Of a DNA stretch of 59,556 nucleotides, positions 9,011 to 51,112 are shown one piece after another. The position numbers were made by a program, and so were the translations under genes. Numbering within the stretch: position 1 is the first letter of the stretch; every line of letters begins with the position of its first letter. The notes below the pieces were generated by a model that was given only the letters and a program-made list of their open reading frames with translations, was not told the origin of the DNA and searched no databases. This DNA is from Prevotella sp. (GTDB taxonomy: Bacteria > Bacteroidota > Bacteroidia > Bacteroidales > Bacteroidaceae): the NCBI GenBank assembly GCA_017615355.1, contig JAGAAJ010000050.1, forward strand, positions 1-59,556. Direction: 5' to 3'.

Positions 9011-9017
9011 CAAAAAA

Positions 9018-9127
9018 GTTAAGAGTTGAGAGTTGAGAGTTGAGAGTTTTTGTCTATGGGCGAAATATAAATTATGTTAAATCAAGGAAACAAACTTCCC
9101 TTTCCTCACTTCTAACTCCTAACTTTT
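9018..9127. repeat. Inverted heptamer arrays between dapA and EEP gene
   Basis: The left arm is GTTAAGA followed by three GTTGAGA units in exact 7-bp register (9018-9045). The right arm (9093-9127) is five 7-bp units of an AACTNNT pattern, roughly the reverse complement. The element fills most of the divergent promoter region between dapA and the gene at 9159. The same heptamer recurs inside metH (twice) and the GH95 gene. Confidence 0.65.
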
Positions 9128-23437: not shown

Positions 23438-25210
23438 TCAATGCCATCCGCCAGGACCGACGGGACCACCTCCGCCACCGAAGCTGCTGCCGCTGGTGTA
23501 GGACGAGAGGCTGACACTGGAGCCGCCGCTGACGGTGCCGTCGGCGATGCTGAGGCCACCGAAGTAGGAGGTGCCGCCGCTGACGCTGACACCCGACTGG
23601 AGCGTGGGCTGCGAGGCTGCAGAAACGACGAGGCCTGAGCCGCCACCTGACGGGGTGAGGAAGGAGAAAGAGCTTGCACCGACGGAGAGCGAATACCAGG
23701 TGGAGGGTGACCATGACGAGGCCTGATAGCATGCCTGTGTGAGGCTGGAGCCGCTTTCGAGTCCGCCCACGGCAACGATGGTGCCACCGGTTACGTAAAG
23801 CTTCTTGCCACCCTCGGTATTGGCATCGATGGCCACCTCGGGTGAGCCGGAGCAGATGGCATAGACGGTGCCGCCCTTGATGTAGCAGTTGCCGTTGGCG
23901 TCGAGGCCGTCGTTGTGCTGTCCCTGGGCATAGACGTAGCCGCCGCTGATGGTCATATCGCTCTTCGAGTTGATGGCGTCGTCGTAGGCATAGCTGGCCA
24001 CCTCGCCGCCTGTGATGCTGAGGGTGGCCTTCGTCTCGATGCCCTCGCCGTTGTAGCCGCTGGTGCGAACCCAGATACGACCGCCGTTGATGGTGATGTT
24101 GCCGTCGGCCTTGATGCCCTTGGGCGACGAGGTGTCGTTGTTGCTCTTGAATTGTCCGCCTGTGGTGACGACATAGACGCTGCCGCCGTTGAAGCTGGCC
24201 TCCATATCGACGTTGATGCCCTTGCCGCCCGAGCCTGTGCTCTTCAGACGCAGCTCACCGCCATTGATGGTGAAGGTGGAGTCGGCCTTGATGCCTGCTG
24301 CGCCCTTGGCCTCTTTGTCGTCGCTGTCGTAGATGCCGTCGCCGGTGGTCAGCACGGTGGTACGTCCGCCGTTGACGATGATATGGCTCTCGCAGTTGAT
24401 GCCCTTGGCGGCTGCTGCCGACACCTCGACGTTCAATATGCCGCCGTTGATAAAGATGCCGTCGTTGGCCTTGATACCGTGATTGGCCGTAGACTTCACG
24501 TAGATGTTGTTGCCCTTGCGGAATACGATGTAGTCGGCTGAGTGGATGCCGTTGTTCGTATTGCCGGTGACGCTGAGCGATCCGTTGCCGTTGAAGAGCA
24601 GCTTGCCCTTGCAGTAGAGAGCGCCCTTCTGGCTACCGCCCTTGCCGTCGGTCAGGGTGTTGGTGGTGCCCTCGGCCAGAAGGATGTAGGCCCGCTTACC
24701 GCTGAGCAGGTTCAGCGCAGCCGAGTCGGGATTGGTGATGCTGACACCGTTGAGCTTCACGGCATATTTCTTGTCGCCCAGCACGGTGAAGGAGCCGTTG
24801 GCGGTGGTGCCGCTCAGCACGTAGCACACCTTTTTCACCGAGCCGTGATTGGCTAAGACATGACCGCCAGAGACCGTCACCTCCACGCCATCTTGTGTCT
24901 TCGCAACGGGATTCGACAGGTCGATGCTCACCTCCGTCGTGAACTCGTTGTTTTCCAGAGCGTCCTCCTCGTCGGGGAAATACTCGTCTGCGTTTGCCGT
25001 TCCTTCTGCGCTTTTCGTGTCTATCGCGATGTCGAACGTGGCTATCTCGCCTGTAGTGGCTGAATTGCCGTTGCCGCCAAACATGTTGCCATCGTTGTTC
25101 CATTCGTTGTTGCCGTTGTTGTTGTATTCCTCAAACGGATCTTCTGCCGTGCAGCATGTCATGACGGTAATGGATGCGGCAAGCATTGCATAAACTAGTG
25201 TCTTCTTCAT
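23438..25210 (-). CDS. Beta-helix carbohydrate-binding lipoprotein (Cthe_2159-like)
   Basis: 590 residues from MKKTLVYAMLAASITVMTCC (lipobox TCC); an upstream in-frame start would lie in front of the promoter. After an Asn/Gly-rich linker, about 350 residues consist of repeated short strands such as GIKADSTFTINGGE, GIKADGNITINGGR and GIETKATLSITGGE. This is the right-handed beta-helix pattern of the Cthe_2159 family (DUF4353), which binds acidic plant polysaccharide and calcium. The C-terminus is Gly/Ser-rich. It is probably surface-exposed and assists polysaccharide capture (inference). It is a single gene. Confidence 0.85.
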   Translation of the reverse strand: MKKTLVYAMLAASITVMTCCTAEDPFEEYNNNGNNEWNNDGNMFGGNGNSATTGEIATFDIAIDTKSAEGTANADEYFPDEEDALENNEFTTEVSIDLSNPVAKTQDGVEVTVSGGHVLANHGSVKKVCYVLSGTTANGSFTVLGDKKYAVKLNGVSITNPDSAALNLLSGKRAYILLAEGTTNTLTDGKGGSQKGALYCKGKLLFNGNGSLSVTGNTNNGIHSADYIVFRKGNNIYVKSTANHGIKANDGIFINGGILNVEVSAAAAKGINCESHIIVNGGRTTVLTTGDGIYDSDDKEAKGAAGIKADSTFTINGGELRLKSTGSGGKGINVDMEASFNGGSVYVVTTGGQFKSNNDTSSPKGIKADGNITINGGRIWVRTSGYNGEGIETKATLSITGGEVASYAYDDAINSKSDMTISGGYVYAQGQHNDGLDANGNCYIKGGTVYAICSGSPEVAIDANTEGGKKLYVTGGTIVAVGGLESGSSLTQACYQASSWSPSTWYSLSVGASSFSFLTPSGGGSGLVVSAASQPTLQSGVSVSGGTSYFGGLSIADGTVSGGSSVSLSSYTSGSSFGGGGGPVGPGGWH

Positions 25211-25261
25211 ATCGCTGATGTTTTTGGGATGAATAGATTTTTCGTTCGTTTTGTTTTGATG

Positions 25262-25292
25262 CAAAAGTACACAATCCGGCCAAACGCTCAAA
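25262..25292 (-). promoter_or_regulatory. Promoter of beta-helix lipoprotein gene
   Basis: On the minus strand TTTG (25289-25292), 19 bp, TACTTTTG (25262-25269), 51 bp before the start at 25210. Confidence 0.6.
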
Positions 25293-25335
25293 AAAGATTC
25301 AGCGAAATGCCGGAATTATTCAGCGAAAGGACACG

Positions 25336-28300
25336 CTAATGGGCGATGTATTTCGAAAGCAGCTGCTCACCCTCGGCAACGGTAATGCCGCGACGACGGC
25401 AGTAGTCAGCCAGCTGGTCGCGGTCGATGCGGCCAACGGGGAAATAGCGGGCCTCAGGATGACAGATGAAGAGGCCGCAGATGGATGTCGAAGGCTGTAT
25501 CGAGTAATGGTCGGTGAGGGTGATGCCCAGCTGTCGCTCCGCGTCCAGACGGTCGATGACAATACGCTTCAGCGAATGGTCAGGACAGGTGGCATAGCCG
25601 AAGGCGACTCTGAGAATGTTGAGAGTTGAGCGTTCAGAGTTGAGAGACGTTTGTTCTGCTATGGAAGAGTCTCTAAACTCTAAACTCTTAACACTCAACC
25701 ATTCAGCAGCAGCTTCGGCCAGACGGGCGCAGAGGGCGTGATTCATCAGACGCTCGGCATCATCGGCAGGCTCGATGGTGGGACGGGCCACGACGGTGAA
25801 GAGGCCGATGGGCGACGGCTGCTGCTCGTCGTAATAGTCGGAGAGGCAGAGGTAGTGGCCTGCGGCACTCTGGCTGCGCAGCATGGGCAGGGTGGTGCCG
25901 TCGGCTAAAACGATGTCGTTGCCGCGACGTGTGGCCTCTTCGAATTGGAGCAGCGTCTGCACCTGAATACGGTCGTTGGCGATGGCATCCTGCAAGTATT
26001 GCTTGCCCTCGGCAAGGGTGCGCTCGGCCTCAGGATTGACCAGCAATTGCGGCAGCGTCTCGCCCTTGAAGCCCCAGAAGAGGAGGAACATGCGCCAGTC
26101 GATGAGGGGAAGGAGACACCCACCCAACAGACTCTCCCCCAGCCCCTCCCTATCAGGGAGGGGAGAAGATACTCCTTTTGCGGAAATGTCGCCTTGAAGG
26201 TAATTGCTCCCCTCCCTGATAGGGAGGGGCTGGGGGAGAGTCTGCTGTCCTTTTTTGTTGGCCTCGGCATAGGGTGTGAGTGGAGCGTGATGCTCCTCGT
26301 AGGCGTTGCGCATCTCCTCCTGCTCAGCCTTGATCTGGGCAATGGTGGTTGCGGCATCCATCTGAAGGTGCTTTGCGATGAGCGAGGTCTGCGAGGCATC
26401 GCCGCCGAAGATGACACAGCCATCATAGAGCGGAGCCAGCTTGACGGCAGTATGCAGGGCCGAGGTGGTGGCGCCTCCCACGACGATGGGCGTCTGCAAT
26501 CCTTCGCGCTGGAAGAGCTGACAGAGCTTCTCCATCTCTTTCAATGAGGGCGTGATGAGGCCGCTGATGCCCACAAGGCAGGGCTTACGCTTGATTGTCT
26601 CTTCGAGGATGGTCTCGCCGGGTACCATCACGCCGAGGTCGACAACGTCGAAGCCGTTGCAGCCCAGCACGATGCCGACGATATTCTTGCCGATGTCGTG
26701 CACGTCGCCGTTGGCGGTGGCCAGTACCACGCAGGGATGTGTGCTTTCCTCTTTCCTCTCTCCACTTTCCTCTTCTTTGATAAGCAATGCCACAGCGTCT
26801 TTCATCACCTGCGCCGACTTCACCACTTGCGGCAGGAACATCTTACCCTCGCCGAAGAGCTGGCCAATGTGCTCCATCGCCTGCATCAACGGCTTTTCTA
26901 TCACGTCGATAGGACGGCCGTATTTTTGCAGCGCCTCAGGTATGTCGTCGGCCAGATGCGAGCTGTCGCCCTTGGTCAGGGCGTAGGCGAGGCGGTCTTC
27001 GATAGGCTTGTCGCGCCAGGAGGATGCTTTCTCGTCGGATGAACTAACAGGCGTGCCAGGCGCAGATGAGGCGAGAAGGGAGGAGGCAAGGGCGATGAGT
27101 CGTTCGGTGGCGCCGTCATCGGTATTGAGGATGACGTCTTCGACAGCCTTGAGCAAGGCAGGGTCGATGTCGTCGTAGACCTGCAGCATCGAGGGGTTGA
27201 CGATGGCCATGTCGAGGCCGGCGCGAACGGCGTGATAGAGGAAGACGGAGTGCATGGCCTCGCGTACCTTATTATTACCGCGGAAGGCGAAAGACAGGTT
27301 GCTGACGCCGCCGCTGGTCTTCGCCAGGGGCAGATTCTCCTTGATCCACTTGACGGCACGGATGAAATCGACGGCGTAGGCCTGATGCTCCTTGAGGCCC
27401 GTGCCGACGGAGAGGATGTTTACGTCGAAGATGATGTCCTGTGGCGGGAAACCGATGGTAGTCAACAATTTATAGGCACGCTGGGCGATGGCTGTCTTAC
27501 GCTCGAAGGTGGTGGCCTGTCCTTCCTCATCGAAGGCCATCACCACGACGGCGGCACCCAGTCGGCGCAGCTCGCGGGCCTTGTTGAGGAAGTCCTCCTC
27601 GCCGTTCTTCAGGCTGATGGAATTGACGATGCACTTGCCCTGCGCGTTCTTCAGGCCTGCCAAGACCGTAGGCCAGTCGCTGGAGTCGATCATCAGCACG
27701 GAACGGCCCACGGCAGGGTCGTTGCTGATGTGGCGGCAGAAGGTCTGCATCTCCTGATGGCTGTCGAGCATCGCGTCATCCATATTGATGTCGATGATGC
27801 TGGCGCCGCCCTCTATCTGTTGGCGGGCCACGCTGAGGGCCTCGTCGTATTTCTTCTCAGCGATGAGACGGGCAAACTTGCGTGAACCGGCCACGTTGGT
27901 ACGCTCGCCAATGTTCGTCAGCATGGGCTGAGGGAGAGTGAGCGGCTCCAAACCCGATAGGTTAAGGGTGGAGGGTGGAAGGTTTTCCACCTTCCACCCC
28001 TTCCTTGGAGGAATGCCTTTCAGGGCTTGGCTGATGGCACGGATGTGCTGCTCGTTGGTGCCGCAGCAACCGCCGGCTATGTTCAGCAGGCCTGCCTCTG
28101 CCATCTGCCGCAGGTGGGCGGCAGTAAACTCGGGCAACTCATCGTATTCGCCCATCTCATTAGGCAGGCCGGCATTGGGATGTAATGACAAATAGACGGG
28201 AATCCGCGTGGCCAACTGCTCGACGAAGGGACGCAGCTCGCTGACGCCGAAGGAGCAGTTGAGACCGAAGCTGAGCAGGTGAGGATAGTGGCTGATGCTG

Positions 28301-28989
28301 ACGAAGAATGCCTCGAGCGTCTGACCCGTCAAAGTGCGTCCGCTGCGGTCGTTGATAGTAGCTGACACCATCACCTGTATGGGCTTTTCTCGGTGCTCGT
28401 TTAACTGTTGGATGGCATAGAGGGCAGCCTTTGTGTTCAGCGCATCGTAGCAGGTCTCCAGCAGCAGCAGGTCGGCACCTCCTTCCATCAGGGCATCGGC
28501 CTGCTCATAGTAGGCCGCTGCCATCTCGTCGAAATCCACCGTGCGCAGGGCAGGATTGTTCATGTCGGAAGCCAACGACAAGGACTTCGACGTAGGTCCC
28601 ATCGAGCCGGCAACCCAGATTCTGTTGAGAGTTGAGTGTTTAGAGTTGAGTGACTTTTGTTCTGCTGTGGAAATGTCACTCAACTCTAAACTCTCAACTC
28701 TAAACTCGTCCGCTACGCGACGGGCGATGCGTGCTCCCTCGAGAGCCATCAGCCGGGCCTTGTCAGCACAGCCGTATTCCTGCTGGCTGATGCGGTTGGA
28801 AGAAAAAGTGTTGGTGGAGATGATGTCGGCACCAGCCTCGATATACTGGCGATGGATATTGGCGATGACGTCAGGCTGTGTCAGACACAGTGCATCGTTG
28901 TTGCCTGTCAGGCCCAAGGACTGTATCTTGGTACCCATCGCACCGTCAAGAATCAGAATCCGCTGGCTTAATTGCTCCTCAATGCTCAT
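25336..28989 (-). CDS. metH: Cobalamin-dependent methionine synthase carrying in-frame palindromic inserts
   Basis: Transfers methyl from methyl-THF to homocysteine through B12. It has 1217 residues. The homocysteine barrel (1 to about 345) has zinc cysteines in GLNCSFG and GGCCGTNEQ. The pterin-binding barrel starts at [12 protein letters not shown] (about 360). The B12 module carries [12 protein letters not shown] (about 757), with the cobalt-ligand His. The activation domain ends with YATCPDHS and the C-terminal [11 protein letters not shown]. Four in-frame segments look inserted: residues about 95-122, 327-342, 916-954 and 1097-1124. All fall in variable loops or linkers, all are palindromic in DNA, and the frame and domains are intact. 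Transcribed from its own promoter at 29011-29041. Confidence 0.97.
25618..25699 (-). repeat. 82-bp palindromic element, copy 2, in metH
   Basis: Arms of about 30 bp built from GTTGAGA-type heptamers flank a loop containing TTTGTTCTGCT. Same length and similar sequence as the element at 28624-28705. Encodes [17 protein letters not shown] within metH, read in the same frame and orientation as the other copy. Confidence 0.85.
26128..26244. repeat. 117-bp perfect inverted repeat in metH
   Basis: Arms 26128-26165 and 26207-26244 are perfect 38-bp reverse complements. Each arm has its own internal palindrome CCCCTCCCT-ATC-AGGGAGGGG. Length is exactly 39 codons. Within metH it encodes [12 protein letters not shown] on one arm and [13 protein letters not shown] on the other, in the linker between the B12 and activation domains. 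Confidence 0.9.
27965..28010. repeat. Short GC-rich palindrome in metH
   Basis: GGTGGAAGG and CCTTCCACC arms (9 bp) with extra purine/pyrimidine symmetry around them. Encodes [14 protein letters not shown] between the homocysteine and pterin domains, a segment that looks inserted compared with typical MetH linkers. Confidence 0.55.
28624..28705 (-). repeat. 82-bp palindromic element, copy 1, in metH
   Basis: Arms 28624-28654 and 28675-28705 (31 bp, two mismatches) consist of GTTGAGA/GTTTAGA heptamers, with a 20-nt loop. Encodes [17 protein letters not shown] just before the barrel strand [11 protein letters not shown] of metH. Confidence 0.88.
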
Positions 28990-29010
28990 GATTGTTTAGC
29001 TTTTGGGGTG

Positions 29011-29041
29011 CAAAGGTACGAATTACTAAGAAAAAAGCAAA
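29011..29041 (-). promoter_or_regulatory. Promoter of metH
   Basis: On the minus strand TTTG (29038-29041), 19 bp, TACCTTTG (29011-29018), 22 bp before the start. No cobalamin riboswitch is seen; the leader is too short for one. Confidence 0.7.
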
Positions 29042-29115
29042 AGAAAATGTTGTTTTTCTATCACTTCGGCACGGAAATTGCTGCTCATTATGTAAAAAAG
29101 AAAGGAGACATAGAT

Positions 29116-29784
29116 ATGGCATTTATTGACTATTACAAGATTCTTGGTGTTCCCAAGGACATAGCGCAGAAGGACGTGAAGAAGGCGTACCTGAAGCGTG
29201 CCAAGCAGTTTCACCCCGACCTGCACCCTGATGACCCGAAGGCAAAGGCAAAGTTTCAGGCGTTGAACGAGGCCTACGACGTCATTGGCGATCCTGAGAA
29301 GCGTCGCAAGTACGACCAGTATGGTGAGCAATGGCGCGAGGCAGAGCAGTTCGGACAGGGTGGGGGAGGATTCCACAGCTCTGGCGGCGGCTCGCCCTTC
29401 GATGGCTTCGACTTCAGCAATTTCCAGGGTGGCAGCGGCTTCAGCTCGTTCTTCGAGAATTTGTTTGGCGGACGTGGCGGCTCAGCTCACTTCAGCAGCA
29501 ACTTCGGCGGCTTCGGACGTCAGCAGGCACAGCCTCGCGAGACGCAGGCCAGCATCAACATCGACATGTACACGGCCTTGCTGGGTGGCGAGGTGATGGT
29601 GGGACTGAGCGGCGGACAGAAGCTGAAGCTGAAAGTGAAACCCGGTACACAGCCTGGCACGAAGGCACGTCTGCGTGGCAAAGGTCAGAATGGCACAGAC
29701 CTCATCCTGACCTACAATGTCACCCTGCCCTCACAGCTTAGTGAGCGTCAGAAACAATTGTTAGAGGAAATGCGCCGCGCGTAA
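29116..29784 (+). CDS. DnaJ-class co-chaperone, CbpA-type
   Basis: 222 residues from [12 protein letters not shown], with a purine-rich AAAGGAGA just upstream, one of the few Shine-Dalgarno-like sites here. The J domain (3-70) carries the HPD motif in FHPDLHPDD, so it can stimulate an Hsp70 ATPase. A Gly/Phe-rich segment follows (about 85-140), then one beta-sandwich substrate-binding domain. The cysteine zinc finger of DnaJ and the second C-terminal domain are lacking, so it is a short CbpA-like protein. The last 24 bp overlap the 3' end of kdsB on the other strand. Confidence 0.9.
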
Positions 29785-30525
29785 GAGATCTTCAGGTGTG
29801 TCGATGCCGACGGTCTCTACATCGGTGAGGCCCACCTTGATGCGATAGCCATTCTGCAACCATCGCAACTGCTCCAGACTCTCTGCTTTCTCCAGGGAGC
29901 TTTGGGGCAGTTTCGTTATTTGTGCCAATACCTCGCGGCGATAGGCATAGAGCCCCAAGTGCTTGAGGAACGGAAAATGCGTGAGCCACTCGCTTGGCTC
30001 CTTGCCCCGTATGAAGGGGATGACCGAGCGGCTAAAGTAGAGGGCATAGCCTCGCACGTCGCATACAATCTTCGGCGAGTTGGGATTCTGCACAGCCTCT
30101 ATCGTGTCGAACGGCTTTCCGATGGTGCCTATCTGCGTCTCGGCATCGTCGAAAAGATGCATCAGCGTCTCAATTTGCGAAGGCTGGATGAACGGCTCGT
30201 CACCCTGCACATTAATAATAACGTCGGCATCGGTGCCAATCTTCTCTGCCGCTTCCTGGATGCGGTCGGTGCCGCTCTGATGGTCGGAGCGAGTCATCAC
30301 GGCCTTGCCGCCAAAGCTCTCCACAGCATTGAAGATACGCTCGTCGTCGGTGGCAACGTAGACAGGGGAAAGGTGAGAGGGGAGAGGGGAGGAGTGTGAG
30401 TTGAGCGTCTTGTCAACTTGTTCATAAACTCTCTGTATGACGGTCTTGCCACCCAACATAGCGAGGGGCTTGCCGGGGAAGCGCGTCGATGCATAGCGCG
30501 CAGGGATGATGCCAATGAATTTCAT
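29761..30525 (-). CDS. kdsB: 3-deoxy-manno-octulosonate cytidylyltransferase
   Basis: Makes CMP-Kdo for lipopolysaccharide core. It has 254 residues from [21 protein letters not shown], the canonical nucleotide-binding start. VQGDEPFI and the C-terminal GIDTPEDL are present. A segment of about 15 residues (about 38-53, [10 protein letters not shown]) between VYEQV and VYVATDDE is extra compared with the family. It comes from a purine-rich low-complexity insertion at 30362-30412. The 3' end overlaps the dnaJ-like gene by 24 bp. kdsC lies at 52609. Confidence 0.96.
30362..30412. repeat. In-frame low-complexity insert in kdsB
   Basis: A run of GGGGAAAGGTGAGAGG-type purine repeats ending in GTGTGAGTTGAGCG, related to the GTTGAGA heptamer family. 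It translates to [15 protein letters not shown], close to the peptides encoded by the metH elements (STLN). Confidence 0.6.
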
Positions 30526-30593
30526 AATTGTGTTGAGATTTGACGGCAAAGTTACAAATATTTCTTAATTCTTTTGCCGAAAATCTTAAATTC

Positions 30594-45117: not shown

Positions 45118-47556
45118 TCAGAACTCAACGATGACTTTGCCGTTGATTTGGCGGCCTGTCAGGTAGTTGGGCACGGCCCATTGGCGGTTGGTGACGTCGG
45201 TTACCCAGTAATAGCTGTTGACATTGCTGATACCGAAGAGATTCAGACAGTCCAATCCTAACCAAATGCGTTTTACACCCCATTTCTCATTTCTTGCTTC
45301 ACTCTTGGCACTTCCTAATGCGAGGTAGCTCATGCCGATGTCGGCACGCTTGTAGGCAGGAGCTCGGAAGCTCTGTGCCTCGATGCCTCTGTGCGGTGCT
45401 CCGAAGGGCAGACCGTCGGCATATGCCAGGCGCAATGTCATCTTCCATCGGTCGGTACCTGGGAAATAGTCGGTGAAGTGCAGGTTCAGGGCGTAGCGCT
45501 GGTCGGTGGGCAGAGGAACCCACTGGCCTTGATATTTCTGCTGGGTGCGCATCAGCGAGAAGCTGACCCACGAGTCGGTGCCGGGAACGAACTCGCCATA
45601 TAGCTTCATGTCGATACCCAAGGCATAGCCAGAGGTAAGGTTCTCGCCGTAATAGGTCACCTTCACGTTCTGCACATTGTAGGGGATGAGGTTTGACAGA
45701 GCTTTGTAGTAGGCCTCGGCGGTGAACTTATACTTGCGGTCGTTCATCTTGAAACGGTAGTCGAAAGCCGTGAGCACCTGCCACGACTGCTGGCTCTTGA
45801 TGTTGCGGTTGAGGGTGACAGCGGTGACGCCACTACTGGTCAGTGTGGTGTCGCGAAGCTCTTTGTAGAACGGAGCCTGATAGTAGAGACCTGTGGCAAA
45901 GCGGTAGGTGATATCGGGATTGCTGGCAGGTACGATAGCTAAAGAGGCGCGTGGCGAAAGCAATGTCTCGCGGTTGAATGTCCAATGGGCGAAACGAAGG
46001 CCGTAAGTGAGGGTGAAGAAGGTGTGGCGGGACTCATCTGCCTCCTCCGACTGGGAATTGGTGCTCCAGCGGAAGATATCCTGCACATAGCCCTCAACGC
46101 GGCGCGACTTCATGTCTTGATTTGAGGCGAGGGTGTAGATGAGGTCAAGGCGCTGGCCAGTATGTGGCACGCTGTAACCGCTCGAGTCACGCATCTCATA
46201 TTCACGGCTTTGCTCCTTGATGTGCTCCCATTTATAGGTAAGGCCTGCCTCTATGTCGTGTTTCCTGAGCTTTTTGTTTAGCATCAACTTCACACTCTGC
46301 ACACGGCCTGTGAGGTAGTTGCGGGCGTGCTCGGCATAGGTTCCCACACCCAACTGCTCGGCACTGCCTGTATCATCGAGCCAGTATTGACCTTGGATGT
46401 CGTAGCGCTCCTGCTCCTTGGTGTAGAAGGCACTCCACAGCAGCTTGACGCTTGTGCTGTCACCGATATGACGTGTCAGCGAGGCGGTGCCGAAGAGGGT
46501 ACGGAAGATGTCTTTTTCCTGACCGTCGAAGTAAACCTTGAATGATTTGGCGTCCTCCATCGTGCCGAACTTTGTCTCACGATCCTTAGGACGGAAGTTG
46601 TAGTGGTTCTCCGAGATGTTGCCAAGGAAATCGAGCGTCCAGCGGCGGTTGGGCTTCCAGGTCATATAGGTCTGGTAGTCAAGCTGGTTGGGACGGTATT
46701 CGCCTGTGGTCTCCAGAGAGCCTAAGAGGTAGCGGTTAGTCTTGTAGCGCAGACCGTGGCTCATGGAAAAGTGCTTGGAGTTGCCATAGCCAATGTATGC
46801 CGAACCGCCCAGCAGGCTGGCTGACGCCGTGGCCTCGAGTTTCTCTGGACGGCGGTAGGTGATGTCAAGAGCGCTGGACATTTTGTCACCGTACTTCGCA
46901 GAGAAACCGCCTGATGAGAAGCCCACTCGCTCCACCATATCGGCATTGATGATAGAGAGCCCTTCCTGCTGTCCGGAGCGGATAAGCAGGGGACGGTAGA
47001 CCTCCACATTATTAATATAGACGGAGTTCTCGTCAAAGGAACCGCCGCGCACGTTGTACTGGCTGCTTAATTCGTTATGGGTGGAGACCCCAGCCTGCTG
47101 CTGGATGAGCTCTTCTATGGCGTTTCCTGTTACGCTGACGGCACCTGTGCGCAAATCTTTGATGTCAAGCTGCTCCATCTGGTCGGTCTGACGCCGCCTT
47201 TCAGTCACCACCACTTCGCCGAGTTCCCCATCTGCACGCAGAAGGATGCGCAGGGTTTGTGTTCCTTGCGGTTTGTAGAGGGTTTTTGTGCGTGGCTTAT
47301 AGCCCACCGATGAGAAGCTCACCTTCACCGAATCGGCTGTCTGCAGAGTCAGGTGGTATTCGCCCTTGATATTTGTGAAGGTCACTTTGCTCTGCTCACC
47401 ACAAGCCACAGTGGCAAACTCAACGGGCTTGCCTTCATCATCGGTCACTAGTCCTTTCAGCGTAAATGTCTGACCGACAGCCTGTAGTGCTGTCAGTAGC
47501 AGTAACATCATTATGGCAATGTGACGGAACACATTGCCTTTGTATGAGTGTATCAT
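45118..47556 (-). CDS. TonB-dependent outer-membrane receptor
   Basis: 812 residues. Signal peptide (to about 28), a CarboxypepD_reg-like sandwich (about 30-110, KGLVTDDEGKPVEFATV), a plug domain (about 125-240, with YNVRGGSFDENSVYINNVEVY) and a 22-strand barrel. No SusD partner lies beside it, so it is not a classical SusC. The last strand ends in Phe (VIVEF), as usual for barrels. It is last of three genes after GH95 and GNAT on the same strand, so fucosylated glycan fragments are possible ligands (inference). Confidence 0.92.
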   Translation of the reverse strand: MIHSYKGNVFRHIAIMMLLLLTALQAVGQTFTLKGLVTDDEGKPVEFATVACGEQSKVTFTNIKGEYHLTLQTADSVKVSFSSVGYKPRTKTLYKPQGTQTLRILLRADGELGEVVVTERRRQTDQMEQLDIKDLRTGAVSVTGNAIEELIQQQAGVSTHNELSSQYNVRGGSFDENSVYINNVEVYRPLLIRSGQQEGLSIINADMVERVGFSSGGFSAKYGDKMSSALDITYRRPEKLEATASASLLGGSAYIGYGNSKHFSMSHGLRYKTNRYLLGSLETTGEYRPNQLDYQTYMTWKPNRRWTLDFLGNISENHYNFRPKDRETKFGTMEDAKSFKVYFDGQEKDIFRTLFGTASLTRHIGDSTSVKLLWSAFYTKEQERYDIQGQYWLDDTGSAEQLGVGTYAEHARNYLTGRVQSVKLMLNKKLRKHDIEAGLTYKWEHIKEQSREYEMRDSSGYSVPHTGQRLDLIYTLASNQDMKSRRVEGYVQDIFRWSTNSQSEEADESRHTFFTLTYGLRFAHWTFNRETLLSPRASLAIVPASNPDITYRFATGLYYQAPFYKELRDTTLTSSGVTAVTLNRNIKSQQSWQVLTAFDYRFKMNDRKYKFTAEAYYKALSNLIPYNVQNVKVTYYGENLTSGYALGIDMKLYGEFVPGTDSWVSFSLMRTQQKYQGQWVPLPTDQRYALNLHFTDYFPGTDRWKMTLRLAYADGLPFGAPHRGIEAQSFRAPAYKRADIGMSYLALGSAKSEARNEKWGVKRIWLGLDCLNLFGISNVNSYYWVTDVTNRQWAVPNYLTGRQINGKVIVEF

Positions 47557-48607: not shown

Positions 48608-51112
48608 TTATTGGGCGGTGAAGGTATAGACTTTTCCTGCTTGGGTGTCAAGGTCGTACTCGTAGATAGGCTTCAGCGATAGCTGCTGAAAATCTTTCAG
48701 TTCAGGAGAGCGTAGAGGCTCACGTATGCTGGCGGGCTGCAACAGTTCATTGGGGCAGGAACCAGTAGCCTCGCGCAAGCCTTTGCCCTTCATCGGTATA
48801 TAAGAACGAAGGCGCAGGGTGCCGCCGATGGTGGAGCGGATGGTAGCCTTGCTGATGCAGCCGTCAGTCCACTGCTCGTCTACAATGAAGCCGCCGCGGG
48901 CACGCAGACCTTTGACCTCACCCTTACTCCACGTCTTGGGCAGGGCAGGCAACAGATGCACAGCGCCGTCGTGGCTCTGAAGAAGCATCTCACAGATACC
49001 TGCGGAGACACCGAAGTTACCATCAATCTGGAAGGGTGGATGAGCGTCGAAGAGGTTGGGATAGGTGCGGCCATTGGGGAATTGGCGCATCTTGGAGTCA
49101 TCGGGCAGCAGATGCAGCATATTCTTGATAATGGTGAAGGCATGGTCGCCGTCGAGCATCCTTGCCCAGAAGTTTGTCTTCCAACCGAGACTCCAGCCCG
49201 TAGCCATATCGCCGCGCTGGTTTAGCGTGTTGGCGGCGGCAGTGAACAAGTCGGGATGGCTATATGGTGAGATTTGGTTCGAGGGATACAAACCATAGAG
49301 GTGTGAGATATGGCGGTGTTCATCCTTCGGATCGTCGGCATCGATAATCCACTCCTGCAACTGCCCGTAGCGGCCAATCTGCATTGGAGGAAGTTTTGAG
49401 AGTTGAGAGTTGAGAGTTGAAATATAAGAGTCGTCTTTTCCCAAAGCTTTGGCAGCCATGAGTGTCTGCGACAACACATCGAAGGCAATCTGGTTGTCCA
49501 TTGTCGAGCCGGCGGTGACATTGGTGCCCTTGCCACGTGGACCGTGTTCAGGTGAAACGGTGGGCACGGTCATCAGCCAGCCTGCCGCCTGCTTCACTTC
49601 GCCTGTATCAGGATATTCCTTCATATAGTCGAGAAGGAAATCAGCGGCGCCCTTCATCACAGGATAATATTCGGCGAGGAATTGCTTGTCGCCCGTGTAG
49701 AGATAATGCTGCCAGAGGTGTGTGGTCAGCCAGGCACCGCCAGTGGGGAACATACCCCAGGGCGTGCCGTCGACTGGGCCTGCTATGCGCCATAAATCGG
49801 TGTTGTGGTGAGCCACCCAGCCCTTGCAGCCGTACATCGTCTTGGCTGTTTCGGCACCTGTTTCGCTTAAATCCTTAATCATCGAGAAGAGGGGCTGCTG
49901 CGTCTCGGCGAGATTGCCGACGAGTGCAGGCCAGTAGTTCATCTCGGCGTTGATGTTGATGGTGTACTTCGAGTCCCACGGCGCGTTCATCTTGTCATTC
50001 CATACACCCTGCAGATTGGCGGGCTGTCCGCCGGGCTGGCTCGATGAGATGAGCAGGTAGCGTCCGTATTGCATCATCAGCGCCACCATGTCAAGATCGG
50101 TGGGATTCTCGGCAAAGGCCTCCACGCGTTTGTCGGTCTCCAAAGTTGATGCATCCGTCTTGGGCAACGTCAGCGAAACGCGGTCGTACTGCTCCTGATA
50201 TTTCTTTATGTGTGCCTTCAGCAGTTCTTTGTACGACTTTCCGTGCGCCGTGAACAATCTCTCATTGACCTTCTTCATGGCATTGCCGCTGACATCGTGG
50301 TAGTTCACGAAGTTGGTAGCTGCCGCAATGTGTAGGGTAGCCGTCGTAGCGTTTTCTACGGTTATCGTTTTTTTGTCATTGCTATCCACGTGGCCGTCTG
50401 TCTCCACATACACCGAGCAAGCCGCCTTCAGCCCTGGCTGAATGCCCTCATGCTCCACGCCATCGACAGTCATAAACATCTGCGCATCATGCAAGCCGTT
50501 CTGCGAGCCGGAGATACTGCCAATCATCGGTTCATGATTCGTTTTCTGCAACGGAGAGGTGAACTCCAAATTGAATGATAGGGCGCCTTTCTTGTCGGCC
50601 TTCATCTGAACGACAATCACACTATCAGCCTGCGAGGCAAAGACGGTGCGCTCGTATTTCACGCCGTCATATATATAAGATGTGGTGGCGGTGGCATCGC
50701 CGAGATTCAGCTCGCGGCGATAATCGGTCACGTCCTTATGGCCCAGCGTCAGTTTCAGACTTCCCAATGGCAGGAACCTCATACCGTGAGGACCTTTGAT
50801 AAAATGCTGGTCGATGAGCTTCGAGGCCTCGAACTCCTTCCCTTGGAAGATGAGACGGCGCACCTCGTCAAGTGCTACGAGCGATTCGGTAGAATTGTTG
50901 TTATGGGGTGAGCCGCTCCAGAAAGTCTCTTCGTTCAGCTGTATCTCCTCGGTGTCGGTGCCGCCGTAGACCATTGCACCTAAATGGCTGTTGCCGATGG
51001 GCAGTGCCTCAAGCCAGTGCTGTGCTGGATGGCTGTACCACAACTTGTGCTGCTGTGCCATCGCGGTGATGGCAAGAAGTAGAAAAAGCGGGAAAAGATA
51101 GAATCGTTTCAT
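48608..51112 (-). CDS. Secreted GH95 alpha-L-fucosidase (or L-galactosidase)
   Basis: 834 residues from [20 protein letters not shown] (signal peptide). The GH95 layout is an N-terminal beta-supersandwich ([19 protein letters not shown]), an alpha/alpha barrel with [18 protein letters not shown] and [10 protein letters not shown] (catalytic Asn/Asp region), and a C-terminal beta domain. Family members release alpha-1,2-fucose or alpha-L-galactose from host or plant glycans. A short segment (about 562-573, YISTLNSQL) is encoded by GTTGAGA heptamers and looks inserted. First gene of the GH95-GNAT-TonB receptor operon. Confidence 0.93.
49393..49420 (-). repeat. GTTGAGA heptamers inside GH95 gene
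   Basis: GTTTTGAGA, GTTGAGA, GTTGAGA, GTTGA in 7-bp register, read in the stop-free direction to give STLNSQL, matching the peptide encoded by the metH elements. Confidence 0.7.

Follow-up and report, generated by a model that had tools for sequence, protein, structure and literature searches.

Palindromes with seven-base repeat arms, read in one frame inside metH and other genes of a Prevotella genome and probably protein-coding

In the 59,556-nucleotide stretch of DNA analysed here (contig JAGAAJ010000050.1 of the Prevotella sp. assembly GCA_017615355.1, 'the window' in what follows), the gene for cobalamin-dependent methionine synthase, metH, carries two copies of a palindromic element, family F1, whose members within open reading frames (ORFs) are, in 82 of 85 cases across six genomes, read in the same one of the six possible frames. 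The family is probably a palindromic element that codes for protein in the way those of Rickettsia do, and one that would have arisen independently in the Bacteroidota from an intergenic palindrome built of heptads. A first-pass annotation of this DNA had drawn the parallel with Rickettsia from the metH copies, and the parallel has gained considerably from the many unrelated genes now seen to hold the element in frame and from its presence or absence between relatives. The host genome (label G000) is a Prevotella-type metagenome-assembled genome (MAG) that spans 3.25 Mb over 147 contigs at 89.7% completeness. Its nearest named MetH relatives are rumen Prevotella or Prevotellaceae MAGs, with 87% identity for locus L091 (genome G060) and 84% for L092 (G061); a further locus that recurs below, L110, is from genome G062.

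The two equal 82-bp copies first reported in metH are both there and both fold. They are about 85–86% identical to each other, and as single-stranded DNA have folding energies of −27.1 and −16.1 kcal/mol (z −9.4 and −3.8), with 0 of 200 shuffles folding as well as either; over six copies folded, z ranged from −2.2 to −9.4. As had been claimed, they share orientation and frame within a single metH ORF that stays open, and metH gave one match in the genome at E ≤ 1e-100. Opposite copy 1, the plus strand has an open mirror frame too, an ORF of 161 aa. The further claim, that the inserts fall in loops before conserved strands, is backed for copy 2 by a model of the activation domain (mean confidence score, pLDDT, 90) in which the insert, at model residues 143–170, runs from the end of a long helix through a low-confidence stretch (157–165, below 50) towards a strand at 170–175, as would a surface loop. 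For copy 1 the backing comes from alignment to solved MetH chains, where the insert occupies a gap directly before the strand with VAG.(M/L)GPT, again suggestive of a surface loop. As an aside on this enzyme, the MetH match in many genomes of the genus (L075, L077–L080, L082, L085–L090) ends at about residue 900–916 of an ORF of about 917–944 aa, and therefore the activation domain there seems to be missing or separate.

Table 1. Positions in the window of metH and of the inserts within it
Feature	Position	Strand	Remarks
metH, cobalamin-dependent methionine synthase, host gene	25336..28989	-	1217 aa; five Pfam domains, all present
Element copy 1, family F1, 82 bp	28624..28705	-	MetH residues ~95-122
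Element copy 2, family F1, 82 bp	25618..25699	-	MetH residues ~1097-1124
Family F2, unrelated in-frame palindromic element, 123 bp (41 codons)	26125..26247	-	inverted repeat inside metH between the F1 copies
Short GGTGGAA-type palindrome, presumably a third kind of insert	27966..28000	-	homocysteine/folate domain linker

Further copies exist in the same genome, where a 121-base query around one of them gave 70 BLAST matches, and they disclose an anatomy that had not been foreseen. In coding orientation the consensus is (GTTnAGn)x4, GAC, a loop of variable length, GTC and (nCTnAAC)x4, that is, each arm consists of four tandem 7-bp units and a GAC or GTC core, and the two arms form terminal inverted repeats. 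Variation falls mostly at heptad positions 4 and 7, the skeleton bases being invariant even where they are third codon positions. The copies listed run from about 60 to 140 bp, so the equal length of the metH pair is no rule of the family, and it has shorter relatives that are half elements or plain heptad arrays.

A covariance model of the element (R1), trained on 19 copies, gave 58 matches over both strands of G000. Among the matches listed these correspond to at least 24 distinct places, with at least 20 in G062 and at least 4 each in G060 and G061; at E ≤ 1e-7 it found 38 places in G102 and 14 in G146. These six carrier genomes were grouped by MetH and UvrA identity and by the peptide, and every listed place in them (n=104) was retrieved and scored. 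An ORF of at least 150 aa is open across the element at 85 of the 104 (G000 20/24, G062 15/20, G060 3/4, G061 2/4, G102 34/38, G146 11/14), against 4 of the 31 places listed for a comparison set, six further genus genomes chosen for having BLAST matches (G028, G035, G008, G010, G027, G018; Fisher p 3e-12). The coding peptide of the family was found in 4 of 150 genus genomes, among them G000 and G127, which is evidently G062. In G000 the proteins with full copies are as various as an M28 peptidase, a RecB/AddA-like helicase, an arabinofuranosidase, a GH95 enzyme, glycerol kinase (glpK), an IGHMBP2-type helicase, PcrA/UvrD (pcrA), a TMEM260-like protein, an M3 peptidase, a C10 protease, RecQ, a DUF5683 protein, threonine synthase (thrC), UvrA, an ABC-F protein, MetH (twice) and the product of one ORF without assignment. 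Host domain matches span or flank both sides of most inserts.

The single frame is reflected in the bases themselves. In the frame used, G or A at position 4 of heptad 3 would make a stop codon, which leaves T and C as the permitted bases. In the 35 coding copies counted (of 37 then known; L253, which is off-phase, and the second copy of the L258 tandem are excluded) the coding arm has T in 25 and C in 10. At the same position the other arm of these copies has G in 25, A in 3, C in 3 and T in 4, while intergenic arms (n=24) have G in 20 and T in 4. Over 79 coding copies the tally is C 40, T 38 and G 1. Coding arms avoid stops.

Exact insertion sites are common to different species and yet what fills them changes, another feature not foreseen at first. 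MetH site 2 holds the same element in L110 and L261, a contracted remnant in L092 and another heptad array in L091; more generally, sites 1 and 2 in sister species are either empty or filled by another palindromic family or by other inserts of 7-residue periodicity (LTSHLSP, VNGQCSM, DNGQRTT and others). In ThrC the element sits at two different places in G000 and G062, each place being occupied in the other genome by a different small palindromic or heptad insert. One UvrA loop has it in G000 and G102, has three other inserts in G060, G061 and G062 (UvrA identity to G000 about 93% for the first two, 92% for the third) and looks empty in G146 and G063; as the net gain is less than the element length, some host sequence was probably replaced. 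The element is present in some orthologues and absent from others, with most of the 'absent' sites holding other inserts.

The same metH also holds a second in-frame palindromic family, likewise not foreseen and unrelated to F1, namely F2, which lies between the F1 copies. Among the loci examined, 11 of its 12 full-length copies are in ORFs of at least 224 aa, the twelfth being cut by a contig end; the common peptide is TLPQPLPxGRGxDT...PPSQGGxGGES, and it occurs in 25 of the 150 genus genomes, G000 included. The position of the GGTGGAA-type palindrome has other inserts or none in relatives. By eye, L024 (thrC of G000) and MetH site 2 of L093, L100, L145 and L158 may represent a third in-frame family, a short palindrome around GTTGCGACTCAGTCGCAAC with peptides like SVGCDSVATNGT and SVCRDGIATNTT. 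A different kind of event is seen in L258, the thrC of G062, namely an exact in-frame tandem duplication of the element together with 14 host bases (a 99-bp unit, 33 codons). A broader proposal, to which we give only a small chance, is that rumen Prevotella possess a process that fills a fixed set of permissive protein loops over and over with short cassettes, palindromic or heptad, from several unrelated families. Between close species one such cassette would take the place of another, many core enzymes such as MetH, UvrA and ThrC would in this way carry fast-changing translated loops, and it would be the machinery, not the sequence, that sets the 7-bp period.

Where might such an element have come from? 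In the comparison set the copies are mostly intergenic, a form that the first-pass annotation had not foreseen, and often lie between convergent genes. For non-ORF copies in G028, G035, G008 and G010, with neighbouring ORFs of at least 90 aa taken from six-frame reading only, 11 of 19 are between convergent ORFs and 0 of 19 between divergent ones, and the convergent copies often lie no more than about 10 bases from the end of either gene. In G000 itself there are two 85-bp copies, 3.8 kb apart, which agree at 84 of 85 bases, while their 25-nt flanks agree at 12 of 25 (left) and 5 of 25 (right); both continue from the upstream gene and provide its stop, reading ...VES*. Near-identity between unlike flanks makes this pair the best sign that copies may be made at new places.

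The origin we propose is as follows. F1 is a short repeat family, non-autonomous, in which two heptad arrays face each other in inverted orientation across a small loop. In several other genus genomes its copies are intergenic and have stop codons in their arms, the intergenic form probably coming first. The lineage of the window has a variant in which, on one strand, one frame is free of the stop (heptad 3 being GTT[TC]AG). If this variant landed in a gene in the right orientation and phase, and its net length were a multiple of 3, some 25–30 polar residues would be added to a loop of a protein that would survive; host selection would purge all other insertions, leaving just the in-frame additions to tolerant loops. 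The arms would grow and be homogenised by 7-bp slippage, and the palindrome would spread by copying to new sites through a putative enzyme. The inserts are presumably translated, judging from the open frames.

Several points weigh against this reading. G102 and G146 were picked since the coding peptide had been detected there, a matter of selection. The ORF class is set by openness, making the openness partly circular, though the shared phase is not. Genomes outside the carrier group also hold in-frame copies (the 4 of 31), and of the weaker listed places added last in G060–G062, 8 of 11 are outside ORFs. Selection on the peptide is not seen, pN/pS (the ratio of nonsynonymous to synonymous difference) being 0.99 when the coding arms of all copies are compared, so that the evidence is of staying open and not of a selected peptide. 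The 84/85 pair could be due to gene conversion. No target duplication is visible in the two 85-bp copies or in the flank composition of 90 copies, with no clean recent empty site for comparison: such sites were sought in metH, thrC and uvrA, where sister genomes mostly hold other inserts, and a pattern search for a second uvrA site gave no result. Nor was a partner transposase found, Y1_Tnp being the one family searched for.

Could it be that nothing moves at all, and that heptanucleotide slippage makes arrays in place, the palindromes being chance inverted arrays? In favour of this, tandem arrays in the window and 80 metH loci (573,764 bases) are dominated by period 7 (n=97, against 19 at period 8 and 27 at period 22), with 36, 35 and 12 at its multiples 14, 21 and 28, and five Markov simulations yielded 0 arrays at each of the eight periods tried. 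The arrays comprise 46 different heptads and occur in 49 of 67 Prevotella-type loci vs 0 of 13 loci of other families, the family of a locus being assigned from record annotation and sequence kinship. Within F1, adjacent heptads resemble each other in the non-coding arm (0.632 vs 0.536, 0/2000 shuffles reaching this) and weakly so in the coding arm (20/2000; the test involved 79 copies, with 75 and 73 arms), which fits 7-bp slippage, and at MetH site 2 the arm is expanded in L110 and contracted to a remnant in L092. Growth and homogenisation of the arms by slippage thus have indirect support. As the entire explanation, however, slippage is unlikely, as it leaves unexplained the fixed GAC...GTC core and the loop shared by unrelated loci, the common phase, and the 84/85 pair with its different flanks. 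In the window there are also two plain GTTGAGA arrays, at 9017–9047 and at 49396–49419, the latter inside a 925-aa ORF, and by eye a kdsB-like ORF (29761–30549) has a 14-residue peptide that looks like a heptad (TCTCACC-type) insert.

A second alternative, likewise unlikely and a shade more so, is that the palindrome is a selected hairpin, be it a terminator, an attenuator or a protein-binding site, kept in genes for a DNA or RNA function. In its favour is the invariance of the skeleton at third codon positions already mentioned, and the synonymous difference (pS) of the arms: at 11 shared insertion sites (15 candidate pairs less 4 with differing offsets) it is 0.240, against 0.545 for the host genes (Fisher 2e-6 with sites taken as independent, Wilcoxon 0.005), indicating that the skeleton of the heptads is maintained or restored in the DNA itself. 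The arms of intergenic copies (17 of 19 usable in the test) do pair at variable positions, at 0.515 vs 0.391 when shuffled (20/2000 reaching), but, against this alternative, those of coding copies (78 of 80) pair no better than shuffled partners, at 0.372 vs 0.377 (1357/2000). The arms covary between genes, not within them, and selection for pairing inside genes is not supported. The constraint is possibly on the heptad rather than on the hairpin, and slippage-driven homogenisation, protein binding or conversion among copies would each suffice to maintain the skeleton.

As regards a mover, inverted pairs accompanied by singletons elsewhere bring to mind REP/REPIN elements moved by RAYT, a Y1 transposase, and Y1_Tnp is over the cut-off in 5 of 10 F1-carrying genomes (G010, G018, G028, G060, G062). 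This would be quite an improbable account, given 0 Y1_Tnp matches in the carriers G000, G008, G035 and G027 and a single repeat that is a heptad array and not a hairpin; with G000 at 89.7% completeness, a gene there may have been missed. G010 has two equally scoring Y1 transposase genes (G010:C2:42744-43100 and 46554-46910) in opposite orientation, 3.5 kb apart.

Less probable still is that ribosomes bypass the insert, or that it is spliced out, at no cost to the protein. An mRNA hairpin is to hand and bypassed palindromes are reported for yeast mitochondria (PMC6649704), yet a bypassed insert need not remain open in one frame, as 82 of 85 do. That the inserts are conserved MetH family sequence, for which nothing was found in favour, is refuted by their absence from distant Bacteroidota MetH and from most relatives at those sites; the same peptide also occurs in unrelated proteins. 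Neither result that the first-pass annotation had named as fatal to its reading, these residues in distant Bacteroidota or a lack of further copies, was obtained. Among other candidates, a phage or plasmid origin found no match in either sequence collection (distant mode), and within 25000–29200 no known RNA family reached its gathering score.

Protein-coding palindromes have so far been regarded as peculiar to Rickettsia and Wolbachia, with a similar process elsewhere called just 'conceivable' in a 2024 review (PMC10969869). In agreement with the first-pass annotation, no coding palindromes or heptads were found for Prevotella or Bacteroidota genes in the open-access literature, other literature not having been searched. 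If the proposed reading is true, F1 would be an independent case in gut Bacteroidota, with ORF copies numbering up to about 34 in a single genome (G102) and essential genes included, and the conversion of spreading DNA into protein could be tested in organisms closer to cultivation. Sister genomes, with their intergenic form, would then offer a before-and-after of a gene-end palindrome becoming a coding insert, and the unrelated inserts swapped in the same loops a natural experiment on which loops tolerate new sequence.

How does F1 stand in relation to known systems? It shares 7-bp tandem units with the heptanucleotide repeats (the cyanobacterial heptads, TAACTGA of Beggiatoaceae and GGGAATC of Xanthomonas) for which slippage matched to polymerase contact length has been proposed (PMC4679880, PMC4692102). 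However, the published accounts of these repeats are of direct arrays lying mostly between genes, whereas F1 consists of inverted pairs with a fixed core, in frame in genes and with 85 of 104 places in the six genomes inside ORFs. Like miniature inverted-repeat transposable elements (MITEs), for instance BrickBuilt of Porphyromonas gingivalis and the enterobacterial RU/ERIC, it is short and non-autonomous and has inverted repeats; RU elements are reported to be intragenic at times (PMC2759123), and BrickBuilt is described as containing a minisatellite (PMC4596501) and, unlike F1, as strictly intergenic (PMC10969869). For F1 no target duplication was seen, with no clean recent empty site to compare, and no parent insertion sequence was found, Y1_Tnp being the sole transposase family searched for. 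With REP/REPIN it has in common inverted pairs and singletons, and differs from RAYT-associated ones in that four carriers, G000 included, gave no Y1_Tnp match. The coding inverted repeats of Nematomorpha mitochondria are palindromes translated inside genes (PMC6649704), as F1 presumably is, but they are described there as long and perfect with arms encoding conserved host residues, and the F1 insert is extra sequence. The closest likeness in way of working, on comparison of published descriptions, is to the Rickettsia and Wolbachia palindromic elements (RPE/WPE), which are also short foldable palindromes, in many copies in unrelated genes, in frame and with a family peptide (PMC10969869, PMC4224334). 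F1 differs from them in belonging to another phylum, in its tandem 7-bp arms, in being about 60–140 bp as against about 150, in having an intergenic form in sister genomes, and in sharing its loops with several unrelated families.

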